DNA of 36,480 nt. Source: Hyphomicrobiales bacterium. Its GTDB lineage: Bacteria; Pseudomonadota; Alphaproteobacteria; Rhizobiales; OSC116. Below the pieces are notes generated by a model that worked only from the letters and a program-made list of their open reading frames with translations, was not told where the DNA came from and did not search any database. The stretch covers positions 1-36,480 of the forward strand of contig JADGDI010000002.1 of the NCBI GenBank assembly GCA_016744975.1. Direction: 5' to 3'. Positions 12,630-21,962 of the stretch are shown here, piece after piece. Made by a program: the position numbers and the translations under genes. Each line of letters opens with the position of its first letter. The stretch's first letter is position 1.

Positions 12630-13415
12630 ATGGATAAAATAGAAGGCACAGTATTTTCTACATTCAAACTAAAGGCTAGTAGCCCTACGCCGCTTTATCG
12701 CCAATTGCAGCAATTAATTCGTGAAGCTGTGGAGCTTGGTAATATTGCGGTTAATGATGCCATTCCAGCCGAGCGAGACATTGCTGCTGAGTTGGGCATT
12801 TCACGCGTTACAGTGCGCAAGGCAGTGCGAGAATTGGTGGATGAAGGCCTATTGGTACAACGCCAAGGCGCGGGCACATTTGTGAAGGGCCGAATGGAAA
12901 TGCCAATGTCAAAACTGACCGGCTTTACCGAAGAAATGGCCAAGCGCGGCATGACGCCAGAGGTCAAATGGCTTGACAGATCCGTTGGCATTGCAAGCCC
13001 TGAAGAAGCCATGGCGCTCAACATTTCGCCGGGCACCGAGGTTTCTCGTTTAGCACGCATTCGTTATGGCGGAGATAAACCTGTAGCGGTCGAATATACC
13101 ACAGTGCCGCGTATGTTTTTGCCAACGCCAAATTTAGTGAGTCTGTCTTTATATGATATATTAACCACGACAAACCACCGCCCATACCGCGCATTACAAC
13201 GCTTAAGGGCCGAGTTGTTCAGCAGTGAAATGGCTGGTTTACTTGGCTTAGATGAATTAAGTGTGACGCTTTATATAGAGCGCCGTTCATTTTTGTATGA
13301 TGGCCGAGCGGTCGAGTTTACCCGCTCCTACTATCGTGGTGATAGTTATGACTTTGTTGCCGAATTACAAATTGACTTACAGCCCAACCAATATTCAAAC
13401 AAAGCGGAACAATAA
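12630..13415 (+). CDS. nagR: GntR/HutC-family regulator of amino-sugar use
   Basis: The 261-residue regulator has a GntR winged helix (about 13-80; PLYRQLQQLIREA, PAERDIAAELGISRVTVRKAV) and a C-terminal UTRA ligand-binding domain (about 95-245). NagR/YvoA-type proteins bind GlcN-6-P or GlcNAc-6-P and release operators of GlcNAc genes. A GGGGG site 9 nt before the ATG at 12630 supports this start over an in-frame TTG at 12621. The SIS deaminase gene begins 1 bp after its stop, so regulator and enzymes form one operon, with likely autoregulation through the repeats at 12459-12491. The exact ligand is inferred from the neighbours. Confidence 0.85.
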   Translation: MDKIEGTVFSTFKLKASSPTPLYRQLQQLIREAVELGNIAVNDAIPAERDIAAELGISRVTVRKAVRELVDEGLLVQRQGAGTFVKGRMEMPMSKLTGFTEEMAKRGMTPEVKWLDRSVGIASPEEAMALNISPGTEVSRLARIRYGGDKPVAVEYTTVPRMFLPTPNLVSLSLYDILTTTNHRPYRALQRLRAELFSSEMAGLLGLDELSVTLYIERRSFLYDGRAVEFTRSYYRGDSYDFVAELQIDLQPNQYSNKAEQ

Positions 13416-13416
13416 G

Positions 13417-14475
13417 ATGAGTGATATAATAACCCGCAGCAATCAGAGTCTGATGTTTTCTGAAACCATGCAAGCGCCTGACGTTGTGGCCAAACAATTA
13501 ACTGACAATAAAGCCGCTTTAACCGCATTGGTTGCACGGTTTAAGAATAAACCGCCTTCTGCCATTGTGACTTGTGCAAGAGGCTCGTCCGACCATGCAT
13601 CGGTTTATGGTAAATATCTCACTCAAATTTTGCTAGGTATTCCTGTAATGAGTTTTGCGCCGTCTATTGGCTCTATATATGGCAAAGGGCTTAATTTTGA
13701 CAATGCGCTTTTCCTTTGTATTTCACAATCAGGAAAGAGCCCTGACTTGCTGATTAATGCTGAGATTGCCAAGCAAAGTGGTGCCTACATTGTTGCATTT
13801 GTTAATGACACTTGCTCCCCTTTGGCTGGCCTAGCGGACTTGGTTATCCCTCTACATGCTGGGCCTGAAATTTCAGTTGCTGCAACCAAAAGCTATATTG
13901 CGACATTGAGCGCATTTGCCCAATTGATCGCTATTTGGTCAAATGATCAGCAATTGCTGGAAGGTCTGGCTGCATTACCAGATCAATTAGCGCAATCTTG
14001 CACGCTTAATTGGGACGTGGCGAGCCAAATGCTAAAACCCACCACCAATATGTTTGTACTAGCGCGTGGTATTGGTTATGGGATCGCGATGGAAAGCGCA
14101 TTAAAGTTCAAAGAAACCAGCACCTTACACGGTGAGGCTTTTTCGATCGCCGAGGTGATGCATGGCCCGATGGCACTGATTGAGCCTGATTTTCCGATGA
14201 TGGCTTATGTGCAAGATGATGAAACCAAGCGTGGTAGTTTAGACATTATCAACCAATTACGCGACAAGGGTGCGCGTATTTTACTAGCACAGACTGGTGA
14301 CATTAACGGCCAATATGCCGAAGATCACCTGCCGGTGGTAGGCGATATTCACCCTTTATTGCAGCCAATTGGTATGATTCAAAGTTTTTATATAATGGCC
14401 AATAAACTTTCATTTGAGCGCGGCCTTAACCCTGACACGCCCGATCATTTAAACAAGGTGACTGAAACAAGATAA
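13417..14475 (+). CDS. nagB-II: Glucosamine-6-phosphate deaminase, SIS-domain type (NagB-II)
   Basis: The product has 352 residues and two SIS (sugar isomerase) domains, like the isomerase half of GlmS without the glutaminase half. Visible features are CARGSSDHA, the phosphate-binding SQSGKSPDLL loop, GPEISVAATKSYIA in the first domain, and ARGIGYGIAMESALKFKETS plus HGPMALI in the second. NagB-II enzymes convert glucosamine-6-P to fructose-6-P and ammonia. The start at 13417 (MSDIITRS) lies 1 bp after the regulator stop. AgaS (galactosamine-6-P deaminase) is a sister family, but the adjacent nagA favours glucosamine. Confidence 0.88.
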   Translation: MSDIITRSNQSLMFSETMQAPDVVAKQLTDNKAALTALVARFKNKPPSAIVTCARGSSDHASVYGKYLTQILLGIPVMSFAPSIGSIYGKGLNFDNALFLCISQSGKSPDLLINAEIAKQSGAYIVAFVNDTCSPLAGLADLVIPLHAGPEISVAATKSYIATLSAFAQLIAIWSNDQQLLEGLAALPDQLAQSCTLNWDVASQMLKPTTNMFVLARGIGYGIAMESALKFKETSTLHGEAFSIAEVMHGPMALIEPDFPMMAYVQDDETKRGSLDIINQLRDKGARILLAQTGDINGQYAEDHLPVVGDIHPLLQPIGMIQSFYIMANKLSFERGLNPDTPDHLNKVTETR

Positions 14476-14511
14476 AAATCGCCATCTCAACATTAAAATG
14501 AAATCTATAAA

Positions 14512-15669
14512 ATGACCCAAGCCATTCAAATCATCACTGGTGCAACCTTGTTCAACGGGGCAGAGTTTTTATACAATCATGCCATATTGATTAAGGGCGA
14601 AATAATAGCCAAAATTTTACCTGAATATCAGTTGAATATTAATGATTACCCAGAAGCTAAATTGCTAAAATTTGATGGCGGCACCATTAGTGCTGGTTTT
14701 ATTGACATACAGGTTAATGGCGGGGGCGGTATATTATTGAACAATCAACCCAGCGTTGAAGGCATTAAAACCATTATGGCTGGACATCGTAAATTTGGCA
14801 CAACCGCCATGTTACCAACTCTAATGAGTGATCGCTTTGAAGTGATGCAACAGGCCGTTAAGGCAGTATCACAAGCCATTGAGCAAAATGTTGCTGGCAT
14901 CATTGGCTTGCATTTAGAGGGGCCATTTTTTAGCATGAATCGCCGCGGCGTACATCAAGCTCAAATGATTAGAGAACCAGATGAAGCCGCTTTTAACCTT
15001 TATAAAAGCTTTAAAGCCGGGGTTTTAATGGTTACGCTTGCACCAGAACATGCGCCAAAAAATTATATTAAACGCTTAAGAAATGAAAATATTTTGGTTT
15101 ATGCTGGCCATAGCGATGGCAGCTATGAACAAATGCAAGCCGCGCTAAAAGAAGGTTTGAGCGGTTTTACCCACCTGCATAATGCCATGACACCCATCAC
15201 TGCGCGCGAACCTGGGGTGGTTGGAGCAGCCCTTGAGGATGAAGATAGTTTCGTGGGCCTTATTCTTGATGACATTCATGTCGCTGCGGCCACGGCTAAA
15301 ATTACTATCAACGCCAAAAAACAGGGTAAGGTTTGCATCATCACCGATGCCATGTCATCGGTTGGTACTGAAGATAACAGCTTTGAATTATATGGAGAAA
15401 CTATTTTGGTGAAAAATGGAAAATGCCAAAATAGCGAAGGCAGCTTGGCTGGCAGTGCGCTTGATATGGCGGGCGCGGTGCGTCATTGCCACAATAGTTT
15501 AGGGTTTCCACTGGCCGAAGCTTTAAGAATGGCATCTATTTATCCCGCGACTGCATTGGGGCTTGAGAAACAGATGGGTCTTGTAGTAGAAGGGTATCAG
15601 GCAGACCTTGTACATCTAAACACAGATCTAATGGTTACCCAAACCGCCATTAGGGGCCAATGGGAATAA
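14512..15669 (+). CDS. nagA: N-acetylglucosamine-6-phosphate deacetylase
   Basis: NagA removes acetate from GlcNAc-6-P to give glucosamine-6-P, the substrate of the preceding enzyme. The 385 residues show amidohydrolase-fold signatures: GFIDIQVNGGGG, HLEGPF (metal-binding Glu), AGHSDG and HLHNAMTP (metal-ligand histidines) and the catalytic Asp region ITDAMSSVG. The length is normal. The gene follows nagB-II by 36 bp. No GlcNAc kinase, PTS component or transporter is in the window, so the source of GlcNAc-6-P is unknown. Confidence 0.93.
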   Translation: MTQAIQIITGATLFNGAEFLYNHAILIKGEIIAKILPEYQLNINDYPEAKLLKFDGGTISAGFIDIQVNGGGGILLNNQPSVEGIKTIMAGHRKFGTTAMLPTLMSDRFEVMQQAVKAVSQAIEQNVAGIIGLHLEGPFFSMNRRGVHQAQMIREPDEAAFNLYKSFKAGVLMVTLAPEHAPKNYIKRLRNENILVYAGHSDGSYEQMQAALKEGLSGFTHLHNAMTPITAREPGVVGAALEDEDSFVGLILDDIHVAAATAKITINAKKQGKVCIITDAMSSVGTEDNSFELYGETILVKNGKCQNSEGSLAGSALDMAGAVRHCHNSLGFPLAEALRMASIYPATALGLEKQMGLVVEGYQADLVHLNTDLMVTQTAIRGQWE

Positions 15670-15700
15670 CCGACTAACAAGGTTACCAACCATAGTAAAT

Positions 15701-15728
15701 GTTTGGTTTATATGGGCATAAACCAAAC
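15701..15728. promoter_or_regulatory. Perfect 11-bp inverted repeat before fba
   Basis: GTTTGGTTTAT and ATAAACCAAAC flank a 6-bp centre (ATGGGC). The stem is perfect but has no following T-run, so it could be an RNA hairpin between nagA and fba or a protein operator. The left arm recurs exactly at 18081-18091, just after the PfkB gene. Confidence 0.55.
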
Positions 15729-15774
15729 CGTCAACAATGACATATGAATTACAAATTTATACAGAGGAATTAAA

Positions 15775-16851
15775 ATGGCTACAAACACTCTCAAACCAGG
15801 CGTTGTAACTGGCAAGGCATATTTCGAATTGGTCGATGCTTGTAAATCGGGCGGGTATGCATTACCTGCGGTGAATATCACCTCATCGAGCACGGCTAAT
15901 GCAGCGCTTGAAGCTGCTGCAAAAGCTAATAGTGACATTATCATTCAAATGTCCAATGGCGGGGCGGCATTTTGGGGCGGTCCATCACTTGCCGACAGCC
16001 ATAATGCGCGCGTAAAAGGTGGTGTTGCAGCCTGTCAGCACATTCATATGATGGCAGAACATTATGGCGTTGCGGTGGTATTGCATACCGACCATGCCAA
16101 CCGTAAATTTTTACCGTGGATTGATGATTTGCTTAATTTTGGTGAAGATTATTATAAATTACACGGCCATCCATTATTCTCTAGCCATATGCTTGACCTA
16201 TCTGAAGAAGATTTAAAAGACAATATCGAAACCTCGGCGCGTTATTTGGAACGTATGGCTAAAATCGATATGAGCATTGAAATTGAATTGGGTATTACTG
16301 GCGGTGAAGAAGATGGCGTTGGTCATGACTTAGCAGAAGGCGCTAATACCGACCATTTATACACTCAGCCTGAAGATGTGTTAGCCGCTTATGATCTACT
16401 AACGCCAATTGGCCATTTTAGTGTTGCAGCGAGTTTTGGCAATGTGCATGGCGTTTATAAACCTGGTAATGTGGCGCTGCGCCCTGAGATTCTTAAACAT
16501 TCTCAAGCTTTAGTGCAGTCTACTCATAGCCTTGCCAACAACCCTTTACACTTGGTTTTCCATGGTGGTTCTGGCTCAGAAAAAGCCAAAATTGCCGAGG
16601 CATTGAGCTATGGTGTATTTAAAATGAATATTGATACCGATACCCAATTTGCCTATTCAGAACCTGTTGGTAATTATGTTGATGCCCATTCAATTGCGTT
16701 TAAACATCAGATCGACCCAAAAGATGGCACGCCTTATAAAAAATTCTATGACCCACGCAAATGGGTACGGGCCTGTGAAGTGGGTTTTGCAGATCGCTTG
16801 GTTGAAGCGTTTAAAGACCTTGAATCATATGGCAAGTCCATCGCCAAATAA
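15775..16851 (+). CDS. fba: Class II fructose-1,6-bisphosphate aldolase (FbaA type)
   Basis: The enzyme cleaves fructose-1,6-bisphosphate to DHAP and glyceraldehyde-3-P using a zinc ion. The 358-residue length and segments such as GGAAFWGGPS, HTDHANRKFLPW and VFHGGSGS place it in class IIA, the E. coli FbaA/yeast Fba1 group. Asp106 and His107 correspond to the catalytic Asp and a zinc ligand; the NVHGVYKPGN and FHGGSGS histidines complete the site. Tagatose-bisphosphate aldolases (KbaY/GatY) are shorter class IIB proteins and fit less well. AGAGGAA precedes the ATG. Confidence 0.93.
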   Translation: MATNTLKPGVVTGKAYFELVDACKSGGYALPAVNITSSSTANAALEAAAKANSDIIIQMSNGGAAFWGGPSLADSHNARVKGGVAACQHIHMMAEHYGVAVVLHTDHANRKFLPWIDDLLNFGEDYYKLHGHPLFSSHMLDLSEEDLKDNIETSARYLERMAKIDMSIEIELGITGGEEDGVGHDLAEGANTDHLYTQPEDVLAAYDLLTPIGHFSVAASFGNVHGVYKPGNVALRPEILKHSQALVQSTHSLANNPLHLVFHGGSGSEKAKIAEALSYGVFKMNIDTDTQFAYSEPVGNYVDAHSIAFKHQIDPKDGTPYKKFYDPRKWVRACEVGFADRLVEAFKDLESYGKSIAK

Positions 16852-16861
16852 CATTATGTAG

Positions 16862-16901
16862 CGGCTAAGAAAGTTGAAATATAAATTTTGTTTCTTAGCC
16901 G
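16862..16901 (+). terminator. Hairpin between fba and the PfkB gene
   Basis: CGGCTAAGAAA (16862-16872) and TTTCTTAGCCG (16891-16901) form a perfect 11-bp stem with an 18-nt loop, starting 10 bp after the fba stop. There is no strong T-run, so readthrough into the kinase gene is possible. Confidence 0.5.
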
Positions 16902-16946
16902 TTATGATTAGCAATATCAAATTAAATTCAATAATGGAGAAACCCT

Positions 16947-18074
16947 ATGAAAGCACTAACCATCGGCGGTGCAACCAATGATTTTATTGCCATTATTGAA
17001 GATGATTTAATCGAACGCATGACCATGCATAATGCTACTTCATCATTTTTATTGTTTGAAGAGGGTAAAAAAGTGGATGCCACCTCTATCGAGGCATTTG
17101 TAGGCGGGGGGGCAACCAATGGTGCTGTGGCTATGGCGCGCTTAGGCTTTGAGGCCAAGGCAATTGTAAAGGTTGGCAATGACCATGCAGGGCATAATGT
17201 GCTTAACGTGTTTAAGGATGAGGGTGTTGATACAAGTTTAGTGATCTGCACGGATGAGGCTGCTACTGGCCGCGCGGTGATGGTATCATCACATGTTAAA
17301 AACCCTACCATATTTGTTTGCCGTGGTGCCAACACGCTGCTGCGCGGCGATGAGGTTAATGAGCAAGATTTTAAAGATATGGATTTAATTTATATCACTG
17401 GTCTTTCAGGCCAGTCTAGTGCGGCATTCCCGCATATTGTATCATTGGCTCATAAATCGGGCGCAAAAGTTGCTGCCAACCCTGGCATTCGACAATTATC
17501 ATCGCGCAGTCAAGATTTTTATAAAAGTTTGGAAATGATTGATATTTTATCTCTAAATGCCACCGAAAGCGCCCAACTTGTTCCGATGATAATTAACAAT
17601 GTCAAAAAGGCCAAATTAGTCGCTATGGATGCGCAAAATAGCCGCAATAACAACCACCAAAGCGACGCCCCAGAGCTGGTGCATGACGGCCTCACATCTG
17701 GCGGTTTTAACATGGGGCTTGGGGACTTTTTTGCCACAATTATAAGTTTGGGCATAGAAACATTTGTGTTAACCAATGGCAAAGAGGGGGCATATATTGC
17801 CAATAAGGACAGTGTTTACTTCTGCAATGCCTTACAAGTGGATGTAAAAGGCACTGCAGGTGCAGGTGATGCGTTTTTTTCTACCTTTGCATCATTATTA
17901 GCCGATGGTGCCACAGTGCAATCTGCCGCCCATGCTGCTACTATTAACTCAGCATCGGTGGTTGCTAAAGTCGATACCCAAGCAGGACTGCTTAAACGCG
18001 ACGTGCTCAAAAGCCAGTTGAAAGACTTTGATCGTTCAAAATGTCAGCTTTTTAAATATAGTAAAATTAAATAA
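16947..18074 (+). CDS. PfkB-family carbohydrate kinase
   Basis: A 375-residue ribokinase-fold kinase. The first PfkB signature is FVGGGATNGAVAMARLG near residues 51-67; the second is GTAGAGDAFFSTF near residue 305, containing the catalytic Asp and anion hole. It is longer than most PfkB proteins (about 310-330), with an insertion around 195-245 that includes an asparagine/histidine-rich NSRNNNHQSD stretch. Next to fba and nagB-II, phosphorylation of fructose-6-P to fructose-1,6-bisphosphate would close the route from GlcN-6-P to triose phosphates. Adenosine-kinase-like or other sugar specificity is equally possible from sequence alone. Confidence 0.82.
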   Translation: MKALTIGGATNDFIAIIEDDLIERMTMHNATSSFLLFEEGKKVDATSIEAFVGGGATNGAVAMARLGFEAKAIVKVGNDHAGHNVLNVFKDEGVDTSLVICTDEAATGRAVMVSSHVKNPTIFVCRGANTLLRGDEVNEQDFKDMDLIYITGLSGQSSAAFPHIVSLAHKSGAKVAANPGIRQLSSRSQDFYKSLEMIDILSLNATESAQLVPMIINNVKKAKLVAMDAQNSRNNNHQSDAPELVHDGLTSGGFNMGLGDFFATIISLGIETFVLTNGKEGAYIANKDSVYFCNALQVDVKGTAGAGDAFFSTFASLLADGATVQSAAHAATINSASVVAKVDTQAGLLKRDVLKSQLKDFDRSKCQLFKYSKIK

Positions 18075-18137: not shown

Positions 18138-19658
18138 ATGACCAAAATTGATAATAAAAAAGAACAATTTGATATTGAAGAAGTAATTGGCTGGCTTGGC
18201 GATGAATCGTTAGATGAATTTCAATATTCTTTTAACTCTGCTAACGAATTTGTACAGCTAGACTGTGCTACAATTGCTGAAAATGGACAATTTACTAAGA
18301 TTAATGGAGATATTGACCCATTTTTAGAATTACGCCAAGGTGCTGCATTACAGAATTTGTTCAGCCAGAATCTATCAATCTTACGATATAAAGACGGCCT
18401 AATCATTTCTCGACAATCTAAGGCCATTGACGCTATGAAGACGCGCAAGTTAATTCATGTCGGTAAGTACATCATTCGTGCTGCAATTGATAGCTTGCAA
18501 TTACTGGACAAAATCACTGATGCTGAATTTAGTTTGGTGGTTGATCTGATTTCTGGCTTATCAACAAAGGAGTCTGCGACAAAGAGCGGCGCTTCTTACC
18601 ATACAAGACGCAATCAAGTGAAGTCTATATTAGAAAAAACGGGGGTTAAAAGCCAAACCGAATTGGTTCGTAATGTCACGGCTATGATTTATGCTCAAAT
18701 TCAAACGATTGAGCAAGAACCAGAGAATAGTCAAAATGAAGCCAGTGACTTTTCAGATTATCTAAATGGTGTATTTGGTTTAGATTACAGGTTTCATAAC
18801 ATTAAAAACTTTGATGGCAGCAATTTACGGGTGATTGATATAGGGCCAGTTTCTGGACGACCCGTGATATATTGCCATGGACTAATAACCATTGTTGGTT
18901 TTTTTGATCTAGATTGGATGTATGACAATAATATTCGCATTCTAATCCCTTTAAGGGCGGGATGCTTTCAAAAACTTGACGACATTCTCAGCAGTGAAGA
19001 ATATTTACAAAAATCTATTTTGGAAATCCAACGATTGGTTGCAATTTGGGGGCTTGAAAAACCTACCATACTGGCTTCTACTTCTGGCTGTGCCTCTGCT
19101 GTAGGTTATGCGAAAATAGCCAGTTCCAATATTGAAACTTTGATTATAGTATCTGGGGTTTATGTAAAAGGTTCAAACAATCGTTTTTTAAACAAATTTA
19201 GAAAAATTTTTCTAAATGTGAATATGAAAAATCAATATATTCGAGAAAAAGTTATTAATTTTTATCTTTATAAAATGCGAGATTCTAAAATAACGATTAA
19301 GCTATATGATTTTATTTATAAGGGCTCTGTTTCAGATAGAAAGTTTATTCGCAATGCCTTGTCAAATGCTAATGTTTTTCAATATATGCACAATCAAACC
19401 ACTAATTCTTGGCAATCGGTTATTATGGAAGTCTGTTTAGAGCATTCACATGTTTGGCAAGATTTAAATAAAATTTCATGCTCGACAGTTTTTCTACATG
19501 GCACTGAAAACCCCACGACGAGCCTTGACGCTATTAGGTCTGTTCAACAAAAAATAGCCAATAGTCGATTGCTAATTGCTGAAAACAAAGGCCAGATTGT
19601 GGGGGTTGACTTCACATTGGATGCGGTTTTAAAGTCGGTAAATGGAAAAGCTTCATAG
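18138..19658 (+). CDS. LuxR-type HTH fused to a degenerate alpha/beta-hydrolase domain
   Basis: A 506-residue protein in three parts. Residues 1-120 are a PAS-sized sensory-like region of uncertain fold. Residues 127-185 are a LuxR/NarL-type helix-turn-helix (DAEFSLVVDLISGLSTKESA, then a recognition helix with YHTRRNQVKSIL). Residues 225-500 are an alpha/beta-hydrolase fold with PVIYCHG at 243-249. By hand alignment the nucleophile elbow is A-S-T-S-G (Thr315 where Ser is expected), the acid position in HGTENP is Asn, and the usual terminal Gly-His is Gly-Gln in ENKGQIVG. All three catalytic positions thus appear lost, suggesting a ligand-sensing rather than enzymatic domain. It lies directly upstream of a TbpB-like lipoprotein and Slam. 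DNA binding is inferred from the HTH. Confidence 0.8.
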   Translation: MTKIDNKKEQFDIEEVIGWLGDESLDEFQYSFNSANEFVQLDCATIAENGQFTKINGDIDPFLELRQGAALQNLFSQNLSILRYKDGLIISRQSKAIDAMKTRKLIHVGKYIIRAAIDSLQLLDKITDAEFSLVVDLISGLSTKESATKSGASYHTRRNQVKSILEKTGVKSQTELVRNVTAMIYAQIQTIEQEPENSQNEASDFSDYLNGVFGLDYRFHNIKNFDGSNLRVIDIGPVSGRPVIYCHGLITIVGFFDLDWMYDNNIRILIPLRAGCFQKLDDILSSEEYLQKSILEIQRLVAIWGLEKPTILASTSGCASAVGYAKIASSNIETLIIVSGVYVKGSNNRFLNKFRKIFLNVNMKNQYIREKVINFYLYKMRDSKITIKLYDFIYKGSVSDRKFIRNALSNANVFQYMHNQTTNSWQSVIMEVCLEHSHVWQDLNKISCSTVFLHGTENPTTSLDAIRSVQQKIANSRLLIAENKGQIVGVDFTLDAVLKSVNGKAS

Positions 19659-19668
19659 CTTGTTGATA

Positions 19669-19686
19669 ATGATACGATTGTATCAT
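19669..19686. promoter_or_regulatory. Palindrome 1 upstream of the TbpB-like lipoprotein
   Basis: ATGATAC-GATT-GTATCAT is a perfect 7-bp dyad of 18 bp, 10 bp after the LuxR-hydrolase stop and 60 bp before the lipoprotein ATG. LuxR/NarL-type dimers bind dyads of about this size, so the adjacent regulator is a candidate binder. A short terminator hairpin is the alternative. Confidence 0.5.
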
Positions 19687-19706
19687 GCGGCAACTTCTCT
19701 CGCTTG

Positions 19707-19727
19707 TTATTAACTTTGTGTTAATAA
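19707..19727. promoter_or_regulatory. Palindrome 2 upstream of the TbpB-like lipoprotein
   Basis: TTATTAAC-TTTGT-GTTAATAA is a perfect 8-bp dyad ending 19 bp before the lipoprotein ATG. Its position is where a repressor operator or promoter core would lie. It shares no obvious half-site with palindrome 1, so a second factor, for example an iron regulator, is possible. Confidence 0.5.
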
Positions 19728-19746
19728 ATTTAAGACGGGATATATT

Positions 19747-20637
19747 ATGAAAAAGATTATTAAGACATTACTGATAACAACCAGCTGTTTGGGCCTTGTT
19801 GCATGTACTCAAACAACGAGTACAGTACCAAAAGAAGAGTATAATACTCTAACTTATAATAGTAAGGTAGTCGCAACGAGTAAAGCAAAGGCAAAGATTG
19901 AGCGCGTTGGCAAAAATGCGGTTAATTTAACCTATGAAGGAAAAACTTACAAATTTACTAAAGCAGATTTGAGAGATCCAACGAGAGACGATCGATTTAA
20001 AATCTATATTCAAGATGGTAAAAGAGTTAAGAAGGCCGACTTAAAAAAAGGCGTTAAATATGAACAATTTAATCTTACCCTTGCCACAGGAAACCACATG
20101 AAGCGTGTCACGCAATGGCAAATTGGGCATTATGTAGATGACGTCAAGGGTAAGGTTGATAATTCTGTCTATAAATATGGATTTTTAGCAAATGGCGAAA
20201 CGCCTCAAAAATTGCCAACTAAAGGCACAGCAACCTACGAAGGCGGGTTTGGCTGGGGTAGTTTAAGAACTAAAGTCAAACCTTGGGATAGTGATAGAAA
20301 AGACTTTTGGGGCGATATAAAGCTAGATGTTAATTTTGATAAATCTACCTTATCTGGAAAATTACATGAGCTAAAAACTGAAGATAAAAACAATAATGAA
20401 ATAAAACTAAAAGGTGAAATTGACATTTCTAGTGGTAAAATCACCAAAAATGATTTCGCAGCCGATCTAAAAACCAATGCTACTTTAAATACTGAAATGG
20501 GTTTAACAGAAAGCGCAACAGGCAAGTTAAACGGTGCGTTTTATGGTTATTATGGCAGCGAAATGGCTGGAACCATTGATATGGAAAATAAAGATTATAT
20601 CGGAAAATTTAGTTTTGATGGCAAAGTTCGTGATTAA
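19747..20637 (+). CDS. TbpB-like surface lipoprotein (probable Slam cargo)
   Basis: A 296-residue lipoprotein precursor: basic start, hydrophobic helix, and lipobox LVAC with the acylated Cys20. The mature protein is lysine-rich and beta-rich. The C-terminal half shows the pattern of the TbpB-type lipoprotein barrel: GTATYEGGFGWGS, alternating strands in DIKLDVNFDKSTLSGKL, then GAFYGYYGSEMAGTID close to the C-terminus, the G-x-FYG-x-x-(A/G)-x-E-x-x-G signature. Such proteins sit on the outer-membrane surface and bind host or environmental iron or heme carriers. A Slam translocator follows 95 bp downstream, the usual genetic partner. The ligand is unknown and no TonB receptor is in the window. 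Confidence 0.82.
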   Translation: MKKIIKTLLITTSCLGLVACTQTTSTVPKEEYNTLTYNSKVVATSKAKAKIERVGKNAVNLTYEGKTYKFTKADLRDPTRDDRFKIYIQDGKRVKKADLKKGVKYEQFNLTLATGNHMKRVTQWQIGHYVDDVKGKVDNSVYKYGFLANGETPQKLPTKGTATYEGGFGWGSLRTKVKPWDSDRKDFWGDIKLDVNFDKSTLSGKLHELKTEDKNNNEIKLKGEIDISSGKITKNDFAADLKTNATLNTEMGLTESATGKLNGAFYGYYGSEMAGTIDMENKDYIGKFSFDGKVRD

Positions 20638-20653
20638 ATAGCGTACCAACCTT

Positions 20654-20679
20654 GGTTGGCAGCTTCATAGCCGCCAACC
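20654..20679 (+). terminator. Hairpin between lipoprotein and Slam genes
   Basis: GGTTGGC (20654-20660) pairs with GCCAACC (20673-20679) across a 12-nt loop that can add a GC/GC pair. TAACCTTTT follows. It may lower expression of the translocator relative to its cargo. Confidence 0.5.
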
Positions 20680-20732
20680 TAACCTTTTAGCTCTATGTTA
20701 TAAAATTGAAATTTTTACTTTTTGGTACCTGT

Positions 20733-21962
20733 ATGCGTCAATTTCTCTTATTCTTGTCACTCATTTCATTATTTCTATTTATTTCAACTGCTCATGCTGA
20801 AGATTCTGTGCAAGTTAAAATAGATCAAACCACCAAGCAAGAAACCATTGGTAGATTATTTTCTGCTGTAGAGCTGTCAATTGAGCAAAAACAGTATAAG
20901 AAGGCAATCGAATTATACCATCATATATTAGACCTTGATCCAACATTGGTTCAGATACGGTTTTCTTTGGCGGAAACTTATTTATTGCTTAAAAAATATG
21001 ACCAAGCGCATTATCATTTTAAATTGGTATTGGCTCAGGAAATTCCTGCTCAAATAAGCCAAATAATTCGCAGACATTTAGCGTTTATTAATCGACAGAA
21101 AATTTGGCAATTTAGTTATGGGTTTAATGTCACTCCAGAAAGCAATATCAACCAAGGCTCAAATAATAAAGTCATATTTTTAGGCGGCCTACCTTTTACG
21201 TTAAATGACGATGCATTGGCTCAAAGCGGCGTTAATATAAATGCACATGGTGCTTTGCTTATTTCACCTAAATTAAGTGACAGTCTTTATGGCCATTTTA
21301 AAATATCTGCGTCAGGTAATTTTTTATCGGCCAGTAAGCAATTAAATTATAACCTTGGCAGTGAGCTGGGTTTAACCATTAAACAAAAAAGCGATAAATT
21401 TGGTGCTGGCTTGGCTTATAACGCACAATTTTTTAATCAAAAGCCATATTCTCAAAAACTTGGCATTTGGGCATTATGGGATAAATTGTTAACCGATAAA
21501 CTAACTTGGGAAGGCCATATCTCGGCGAGTAATACCAGTTATAATAATGTTGTAGGCACAGATTATAATTTTAGACTTTACCAATCGATTCAATATGAAC
21601 ATAATGCCCAACTTGGCTTTAATCTCTCGCCAACCATCAGTTATAAAAAGTCACTTAGCCCACTAAATAGTAAACTAGGCTTCGGTTTGACGCTGGGTAG
21701 CCGCCATAGTTTAGCCTATGGTTTTACCATTAACACCAACTTATCAGCAGATTATAGCCAATATTTTGCCCAAAATACATTGTTTAACAAAAAGCGCAAA
21801 GACCTGGATATTGGCATCGGGCTTAAAGTTGCCAATAGCAAATTACGCATTTTTGATTTTGCACCTTATATACAATATCGGTTTCAATTGCGTAAAAGCA
21901 ATATTGAATTGTATAATTACACCAATCACTCAGTCAGCTTTGGCCTTACGGCTCGCTTTTAG
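20733..21962 (+). CDS. Slam (DUF560) surface lipoprotein translocator, type XI secretion
   Basis: Slam proteins move lipoproteins such as TbpB across the outer membrane to the cell surface. With the ATG at 20733 the product has 409 residues: a signal peptide ending STAHA before EDS, a periplasmic TPR region (about 25-120, with QYKKAIELYHHILDLDPT and KKYDQAHYHFKLVL), then a beta-barrel. The barrel opens with the Slam-type FSYGFNVTPESNINQGS and consists of alternating strands ending in a terminal aromatic, SFGLTARF, the expected BAM signal. The in-frame TTG at 20706 is less likely as it would precede the signal peptide with extra residues. It is somewhat shorter than neisserial Slam1. Confidence 0.85.
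   Translation: MRQFLLFLSLISLFLFISTAHAEDSVQVKIDQTTKQETIGRLFSAVELSIEQKQYKKAIELYHHILDLDPTLVQIRFSLAETYLLLKKYDQAHYHFKLVLAQEIPAQISQIIRRHLAFINRQKIWQFSYGFNVTPESNINQGSNNKVIFLGGLPFTLNDDALAQSGVNINAHGALLISPKLSDSLYGHFKISASGNFLSASKQLNYNLGSELGLTIKQKSDKFGAGLAYNAQFFNQKPYSQKLGIWALWDKLLTDKLTWEGHISASNTSYNNVVGTDYNFRLYQSIQYEHNAQLGFNLSPTISYKKSLSPLNSKLGFGLTLGSRHSLAYGFTINTNLSADYSQYFAQNTLFNKKRKDLDIGIGLKVANSKLRIFDFAPYIQYRFQLRKSNIELYNYTNHSVSFGLTARF

Follow-up and report, generated by a model that had tools for sequence, protein, structure and literature searches.

Does a one-protein regulator encoded immediately upstream of a surface lipoprotein gene and a Slam translocator gene form a working unit with them, or is it just a neighbour? 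This question is raised by a locus in the window, a 36,480-nucleotide stretch from the genome of a Hyphomicrobiales bacterium (G000; 2.77 Mb, 95% complete), the features of which are collected in Table 1. A ccoN-type gene of the window is closest to Rhizobium/Sinorhizobium genes, as would suit an alphaproteobacterium. Our reading, to which we assign a probability of about 0.6 on the basis of sequence comparison, is that of a self-contained, locally regulated surface-display cassette, in which a one-component regulator would bind a palindrome and control both the cargo and its Slam, and a pseudohydrolase domain would sense a ligand.

Table 1. Features of the regulator–lipoprotein–Slam locus (positions in the window).
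Feature	Position	Strand	Details and basis
HTH/alpha-beta-pseudohydrolase one-component regulator	18138–19658	+	506 aa; Pfam, NCBIfam, family alignment and profile
LuxR-like HTH, aa 125–185	18510–18692	+	Recognition helix HTRRNQVKS; family alignment, NCBIfam LuxR-type matches
Degenerate alpha/beta-hydrolase domain, aa ~217–490	18786–19607	+	Alignment; fold from profile
Triad positions of the regulator	19083–19085 (Ser316, kept); 19509–19511 (Asn458 for Asp); 19593–19595 (Gln486 for His)	+	Alignment
Candidate operator, 18-bp perfect palindrome ATGATACGATTGTATCAT	19669–19686	.	60 bp 5' of the lipoprotein ATG
TbpB-like surface lipoprotein, putative Slam cargo	19747–20637	+	296 aa; TbpB_B_D at 20212–20613
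Hairpin in the cargo/Slam gap, possible attenuator	20654–20679	+	z −3.05, 0 of 200 shuffles; congeneric copies
Slam/T11SS outer-membrane translocator	20706–21962	+	TPR part, then SlipAM barrel at 21105–21944; Pfam

All three open reading frames were intact and lie where the initial annotation had placed them, and its identification of an HTH/hydrolase fusion, a TbpB-like lipoprotein and a Slam protein held in Pfam, NCBIfam and profile comparisons. The lipoprotein showed, by eye, a signal peptide and an LVAC lipobox with Cys20, and matched TbpB_B_D (PF01298; 1.3e-12, 48.7 bits against a cut-off of 26). A profile built from this protein and nine relatives of two families matched solved TbpB, LbpB, and hemophilin structures, with values down to 3.6e-14, its positions 46–275 aligning to residues 292–526 of TbpB. 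Against the NCBIfam model slam_lipo (NF041636), the lipoprotein reached 49.2 bits, under the curated cut-off of 80, so it is kin to this family and not an equivalog. The translocator matched SlipAM (PF04575, DUF560; 1.5e-19, 71 bits against a cut-off of 22), preceded by an N-terminal TPR region (TPR_19, 29.7 bits against 25; TPR_Slam, 28.9 bits, under its 35.2). By eye, it starts at TTG 20706 or at ATG 20733, which may be the actual start codon. A strong hairpin of different sequence occupies the same position between cargo and Slam in the copies of the congeneric genomes G003, G004 (two loci), and G005, and it possibly limits Slam relative to its cargo. The first cargo gene of G003 and G005 (L042 1–840, L040 8314–9159) encodes VASG instead of a lipobox Cys, so this product may be non-lipidated and secreted. 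No Slam was found on phages.

Slam–cargo pairs had been described in the initial annotation as mainly gamma- and betaproteobacterial, which did not agree with their detection in 43 of 385 species of the class and with the “cluster 3” T11SS of Rhodobacteraceae (PMC12282271). The same annotation supposed that the regulator takes the place of a missing TonB-dependent receptor. The receptor is indeed missing, as searches with PF00593 and PF07715 gave no match in six congeneric genomes, with positive controls, and thus the partner receptor of a TbpAB-type TonB co-receptor was found in none of them. The idea of a replacement fared worse: a receptor-like gene appeared within ~5.5 kb at 1 of ~60 other Alphaproteobacterial Slam loci, a count that is a lower bound, as it comes from a three-query phmmer search of low sensitivity. 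Together, both results indicate that receptor absence is the rule and not the outcome of a replacement by the regulator.

The regulator is a divergent protein. Taken alone, it stayed under every Pfam cut-off (Hydrolase_4, 0.0065), missed GerE/LuxR (PF00196), and gave weak matches to LuxR-type NCBIfam models (1.9e-4 and 0.008). A profile of its 19-member family, in turn, matched PDB alpha/beta hydrolases at 1e-22, and PF00196 was matched by seven of the 19 members, so the HTH–hydrolase fusion is real but divergent. Single-sequence structure predictions were unusable for fold assignment (mean pLDDT 32 for the regulator and 36 for the lipoprotein). Near-full, strong matches to the window regulator were confined to the genus in our sample (3 of 397 genomes), and the sole match in the related-locus search of genome contigs was the HTH of an unrelated response-regulator-like protein. 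Pfam detected no Autoind_bind domain in the regulator, and no LuxI (PF00765) was found in G000. HTH–hydrolase genes repeatedly adjoin a gene for an autoinducer-binding LuxR, divergent or collinear (L051 6027–10388 in G000:C44; L057 4377–6910 in G003:C49; L217 2904–5140 in Maritalea), a pair that, with no LuxI in G000, is a possible two-regulator unit.

Comparison of six congeneric genomes (G000–G005) located window-type loci in G000, G003, G004, and G005, G003 and G004 being incomplete assemblies, and none in the near-complete G001 and G002. A LuxR-type gene lies beside the locus in all four genomes that have it. HTH–hydrolase genes were present at the locus in G000, G003 (two copies), and G005 (broken), with an additional LuxR gene in G003 and G005. 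The G004 locus showed three LuxR/PAS-like genes and lacks a fusion with a hydrolase, which makes this domain dispensable for the cassette. Two contigs, joined by inference, carry the regulators and the cargo–Slam pair of G003, their ends matching the gene order of G005. In this last genome, the regulator presented two stops, Slam a large internal deletion, and the palindrome one damaged half. This joint damage counts in favour of a linked unit; the locus looks to be decaying, and assembly error may account for the damage as well. A second Slam locus of the genus, without regulator, consists of a lipoprotein, Slam, and a phosphotransferase-like gene, and is located between ffh/rpsP/trmD and lpd genes (G000:C124, L049 4951–7559; counterparts L045, L046, L048, L050, and L047); in G002 it seems to have kept Slam without cargo. 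In addition, a gene resembling those of THUMP-type methyltransferases lies next to Slam in G003 and G005 (L042 3001–4152, L040 5353–6477) and next to a Slam fragment of family f6 (L111 7147–8446, G275), perhaps marking an old location of the locus.

The 88-bp gap between the regulator and lipoprotein genes contains the palindrome, which lies just 5' of a TATTAA at 19708, followed by a ribosome-binding stretch and the ATG at 19747, a position that would suit a LuxR-type activator. Four exact copies of the 18-bp palindrome ATGATRCNNNNGYATCAT were found in 11 genomes, all of them at a window-type locus (G000, G003, and twice in G004), and the copy at the G005 locus carries one mismatch. The comparable intergenic sites are ATGATGCAATTGTATCAT in G003, ATGATACAAATGAATCAT in G005, and ATGATGCATTTGCATCAT, twice, in G004, for ATGATACGATTGTATCAT in the window; outside the palindrome, the intergenic stretches of G000, G004, and G003 align weakly. 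Among 5000 Markov-chain shuffles each, preserving dinucleotide frequencies, 0 (G003), 2 (G005), and 26 (G004) reached the observed similarity, statistics that are partly post hoc, as the palindrome was first found in these loci, and in which G003 and G005 count as one, their intergenic regions being homologous overall. A role as terminator of the regulator gene was rejected from its location in divergent intergenic regions in G003–G005. Regarding the protein that would bind it, G000 and G004 lack an ortholog of the autoinducer-type LuxR of G003 and G005, and regulators with an R-N-Q recognition helix are present at all four loci of the genus, which makes an HTH with the helix ...RNQ... the common candidate.

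Two iron-related boxes, that of Fur (TGATAATNATTATCA) and the IRO box of rhizobia (TGA-N9-TCA), resemble this palindrome, which reads TGA-N10-TCA. The cassette could therefore answer to a global regulator of iron genes (Fur, RirA, or Irr), with the palindrome as its box and the LuxR-type neighbours unrelated, all the more as TbpB-like cargo is linked to iron elsewhere (PMC8406197). We consider this unlikely: a global box would be expected at many genes, but exact copies were found at the window-type locus only in the 11 genomes, and its spacing is one base off, with an even centre. Furthermore, the genus yielded no TonB-dependent receptor in the searches above, and LuxR-type genes adjoin every congeneric copy with enough visible flank.

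Slam was detected in 30 of 397 genomes of the order. Outside the genus, fetched loci of family f45 (G315, G329) presented lipoprotein, Slam, and PAS–HTH–hydrolase genes side by side, and in those of f6 (G129, G344, G391) Slam and a homologous TbpB-like lipoprotein are accompanied by a LuxR/PAS-like gene; no shared palindromic site was found in the f45 and f6 loci. The window regulator, used as query against annotated plasmid records without regard to Slam, gave matches in seven of them. In one of these, Sinorhizobium meliloti CP090106.1 (labelled pSymB, although its size and gene content, with priA and atpH, look chromosomal), the regulator gene (UIJ94750.1, “alpha/beta hydrolase”) is transcribed divergently from the genes for a “transferrin-binding protein-like” product and Slam (UIJ94751.1, UIJ94752.1). 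This unit has the same three adjacent gene types and a His to Gln change, as in the window, but it is divergent instead of collinear, and its regulator shows 23% identity. The palindrome of the genus is not shared either, S. meliloti and f45 having other palindromes or no clear ones. In the regulator tree, Slam adjacency appears in three separate places, with starred branches forcing three changes, and in the Slam tree, the label of a LuxR-type neighbour also needs three changes on supported branches (0 of 500 shuffles as low). A single common origin of the LuxR–Slam linkage was thus rejected. Separately, Sagittula and Sulfitobacter plasmids (L213, L214) showed Slam beside a kinase-like ATP-binding protein and response-regulator pair, which hints at a wider occurrence of locally encoded Slam regulators.

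It could still be argued that in G000 the adjacency is accidental, the regulator belonging to the upstream fba/pfkB sugar genes or being a relic, with cargo and Slam expressed constitutively. The regulator does start 63 bp 3' of pfkB on the same strand, downstream of an amino-sugar use cluster (13297–18074) with consecutive genes for a NagB-II type deaminase, NagA, class II fructose-bisphosphate aldolase, and PfkB kinase, and many HTH–hydrolases are located elsewhere, most of them not adjacent to Slam. Nevertheless, the regulator stays with cargo and Slam in G003/G005 and in S. meliloti, in different surroundings, and the palindrome is conserved, so we find an accidental adjacency improbable. 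The link between regulator and cassette appears well supported by these comparisons: the shared role, which the initial annotation had drawn from adjacency alone, now has behind it LuxR-type neighbours at all four window-type loci of the genus, a locus-specific palindrome, and recurrence in other lineages, with the regulator conserved beside lipoprotein and slam in the genus, f45, and S. meliloti.

Concerning the sensor, the family alignment revealed Ser–Asn–Gln at the triad positions of the window regulator (D to N and H to Q), in agreement with the pseudohydrolase first proposed. The best congeneric homologue (G003) has the same three residues, the f45 copies Ser, Asp, and Glu, and the S. 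meliloti copy Ser, Asp, and Gln, so that in all Slam-adjacent copies readable to the end the catalytic His is replaced (Gln, Gln, Glu, Gln) and Ser retained. A complete Ser–Asp–His triad was found in five relatives from other families (e.g., GNSxGG, HGxxDPLT, GGGHF), which form one separate clade; this and the Asn/Gln in the acid and base positions support the term pseudohydrolase. An enzyme with altered chemistry, which would modify or degrade the signal besides sensing it, would fit with the nucleophile Ser316, retained in the window regulator and in its near relatives, with the presence of Asp in the f45 and S. meliloti copies, and with the complete triad of the separate clade. The loss of His in every readable Slam-adjacent copy argues against it, as does the absence of Ser too in several paralogues of one and the same genome, and we regard such an activity as very unlikely.

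A locally regulated cassette thus remains our preferred reading. The LuxR-like HTH would bind the palindrome as a dimer and control the cargo gene, with the Slam gene reached by read-through past the hairpin, and the C-terminal alpha/beta-hydrolase fold, its catalysis lost, would act as receptor for a small molecule, probably ester-, lactone-, or acyl-like. The lipoprotein would be exported through the Lol pathway and then flipped to the surface by the adjacent Slam, and, as the genome yielded no TonB-dependent receptor, its role may be that of an adhesin or surface binder rather than that of a TonB co-receptor. As related bacteria, S. meliloti included, have retained this type of regulator beside the export pair and the palindrome is found again in the related species, the switch is probably part of the export system. 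With somewhat less than even confidence, we extend this to a recurrent, TonB-independent Alphaproteobacterial class, arisen up to three times by the joining of HTH–pseudohydrolases to cargo–Slam pairs, in which a pseudohydrolase one-component receptor would sense a diffusible acyl-type signal and switch a Slam-exported binding protein. As the same three gene types exist in S. meliloti, regulator, ligand, and surface protein are directly testable there.

T11SS studies have dealt mainly with Slam pairs that are host-associated and linked to iron; the window locus uncouples Slam export from TonB uptake and offers a defined candidate operator. Neither PMC8406197 nor PMC12282271 mentions LuxR, and in the open-licence literature we found no dedicated LuxR-type regulator for T11SS and no report of LuxR together with DUF560. 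Provisionally, given this coverage, the locus presents known families in a regulated arrangement for which we found no description among T11SS. With the Slam/T11SS systems carrying TbpB-domain cargo (Neisseria Slam1–TbpB, Xenorhabdus HrpB–HrpC, and NilB–NilC), it shares the SlipAM barrel and TPR part beside a lipoprotein with a C-terminal TbpB beta-barrel; it differs from them in the LuxR-type/HTH–pseudohydrolase regulator and the palindrome, in a genus where the searches turned up no TonB-dependent receptor. The cluster-3 T11SS of Rhodobacteraceae/Roseobacteraceae are also Alphaproteobacterial Slam homologues with TonB receptors rarely nearby, but their cargo is rarely TbpB-like and their neighbours are DUF1194 proteins (PMC12282271), whereas in the window a TbpB-like cargo gene adjoins Slam. 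Like LuxR solos and PAS–LuxR one-component regulators, which have a GerE-type HTH, the window regulator is a putative single-protein sensor with a LuxR-like HTH, no LuxI, and a candidate palindromic site; its sensor part, however, follows the HTH on the C-terminal side and has an alpha/beta-hydrolase fold instead of Autoind_bind. Finally, an enzyme fold is used for perception in the alpha/beta-hydrolase-fold signal receptors RsbQ, KAI2/D14, and GID1, to which the window protein is likened by its proposed use of the fold. In contrast to them, it is fused to its own HTH and has triad residues replaced. It thus offers an example of a putative transcription-factor sensor derived from a catalytic domain, which can be compared with relatives that have the complete triad.
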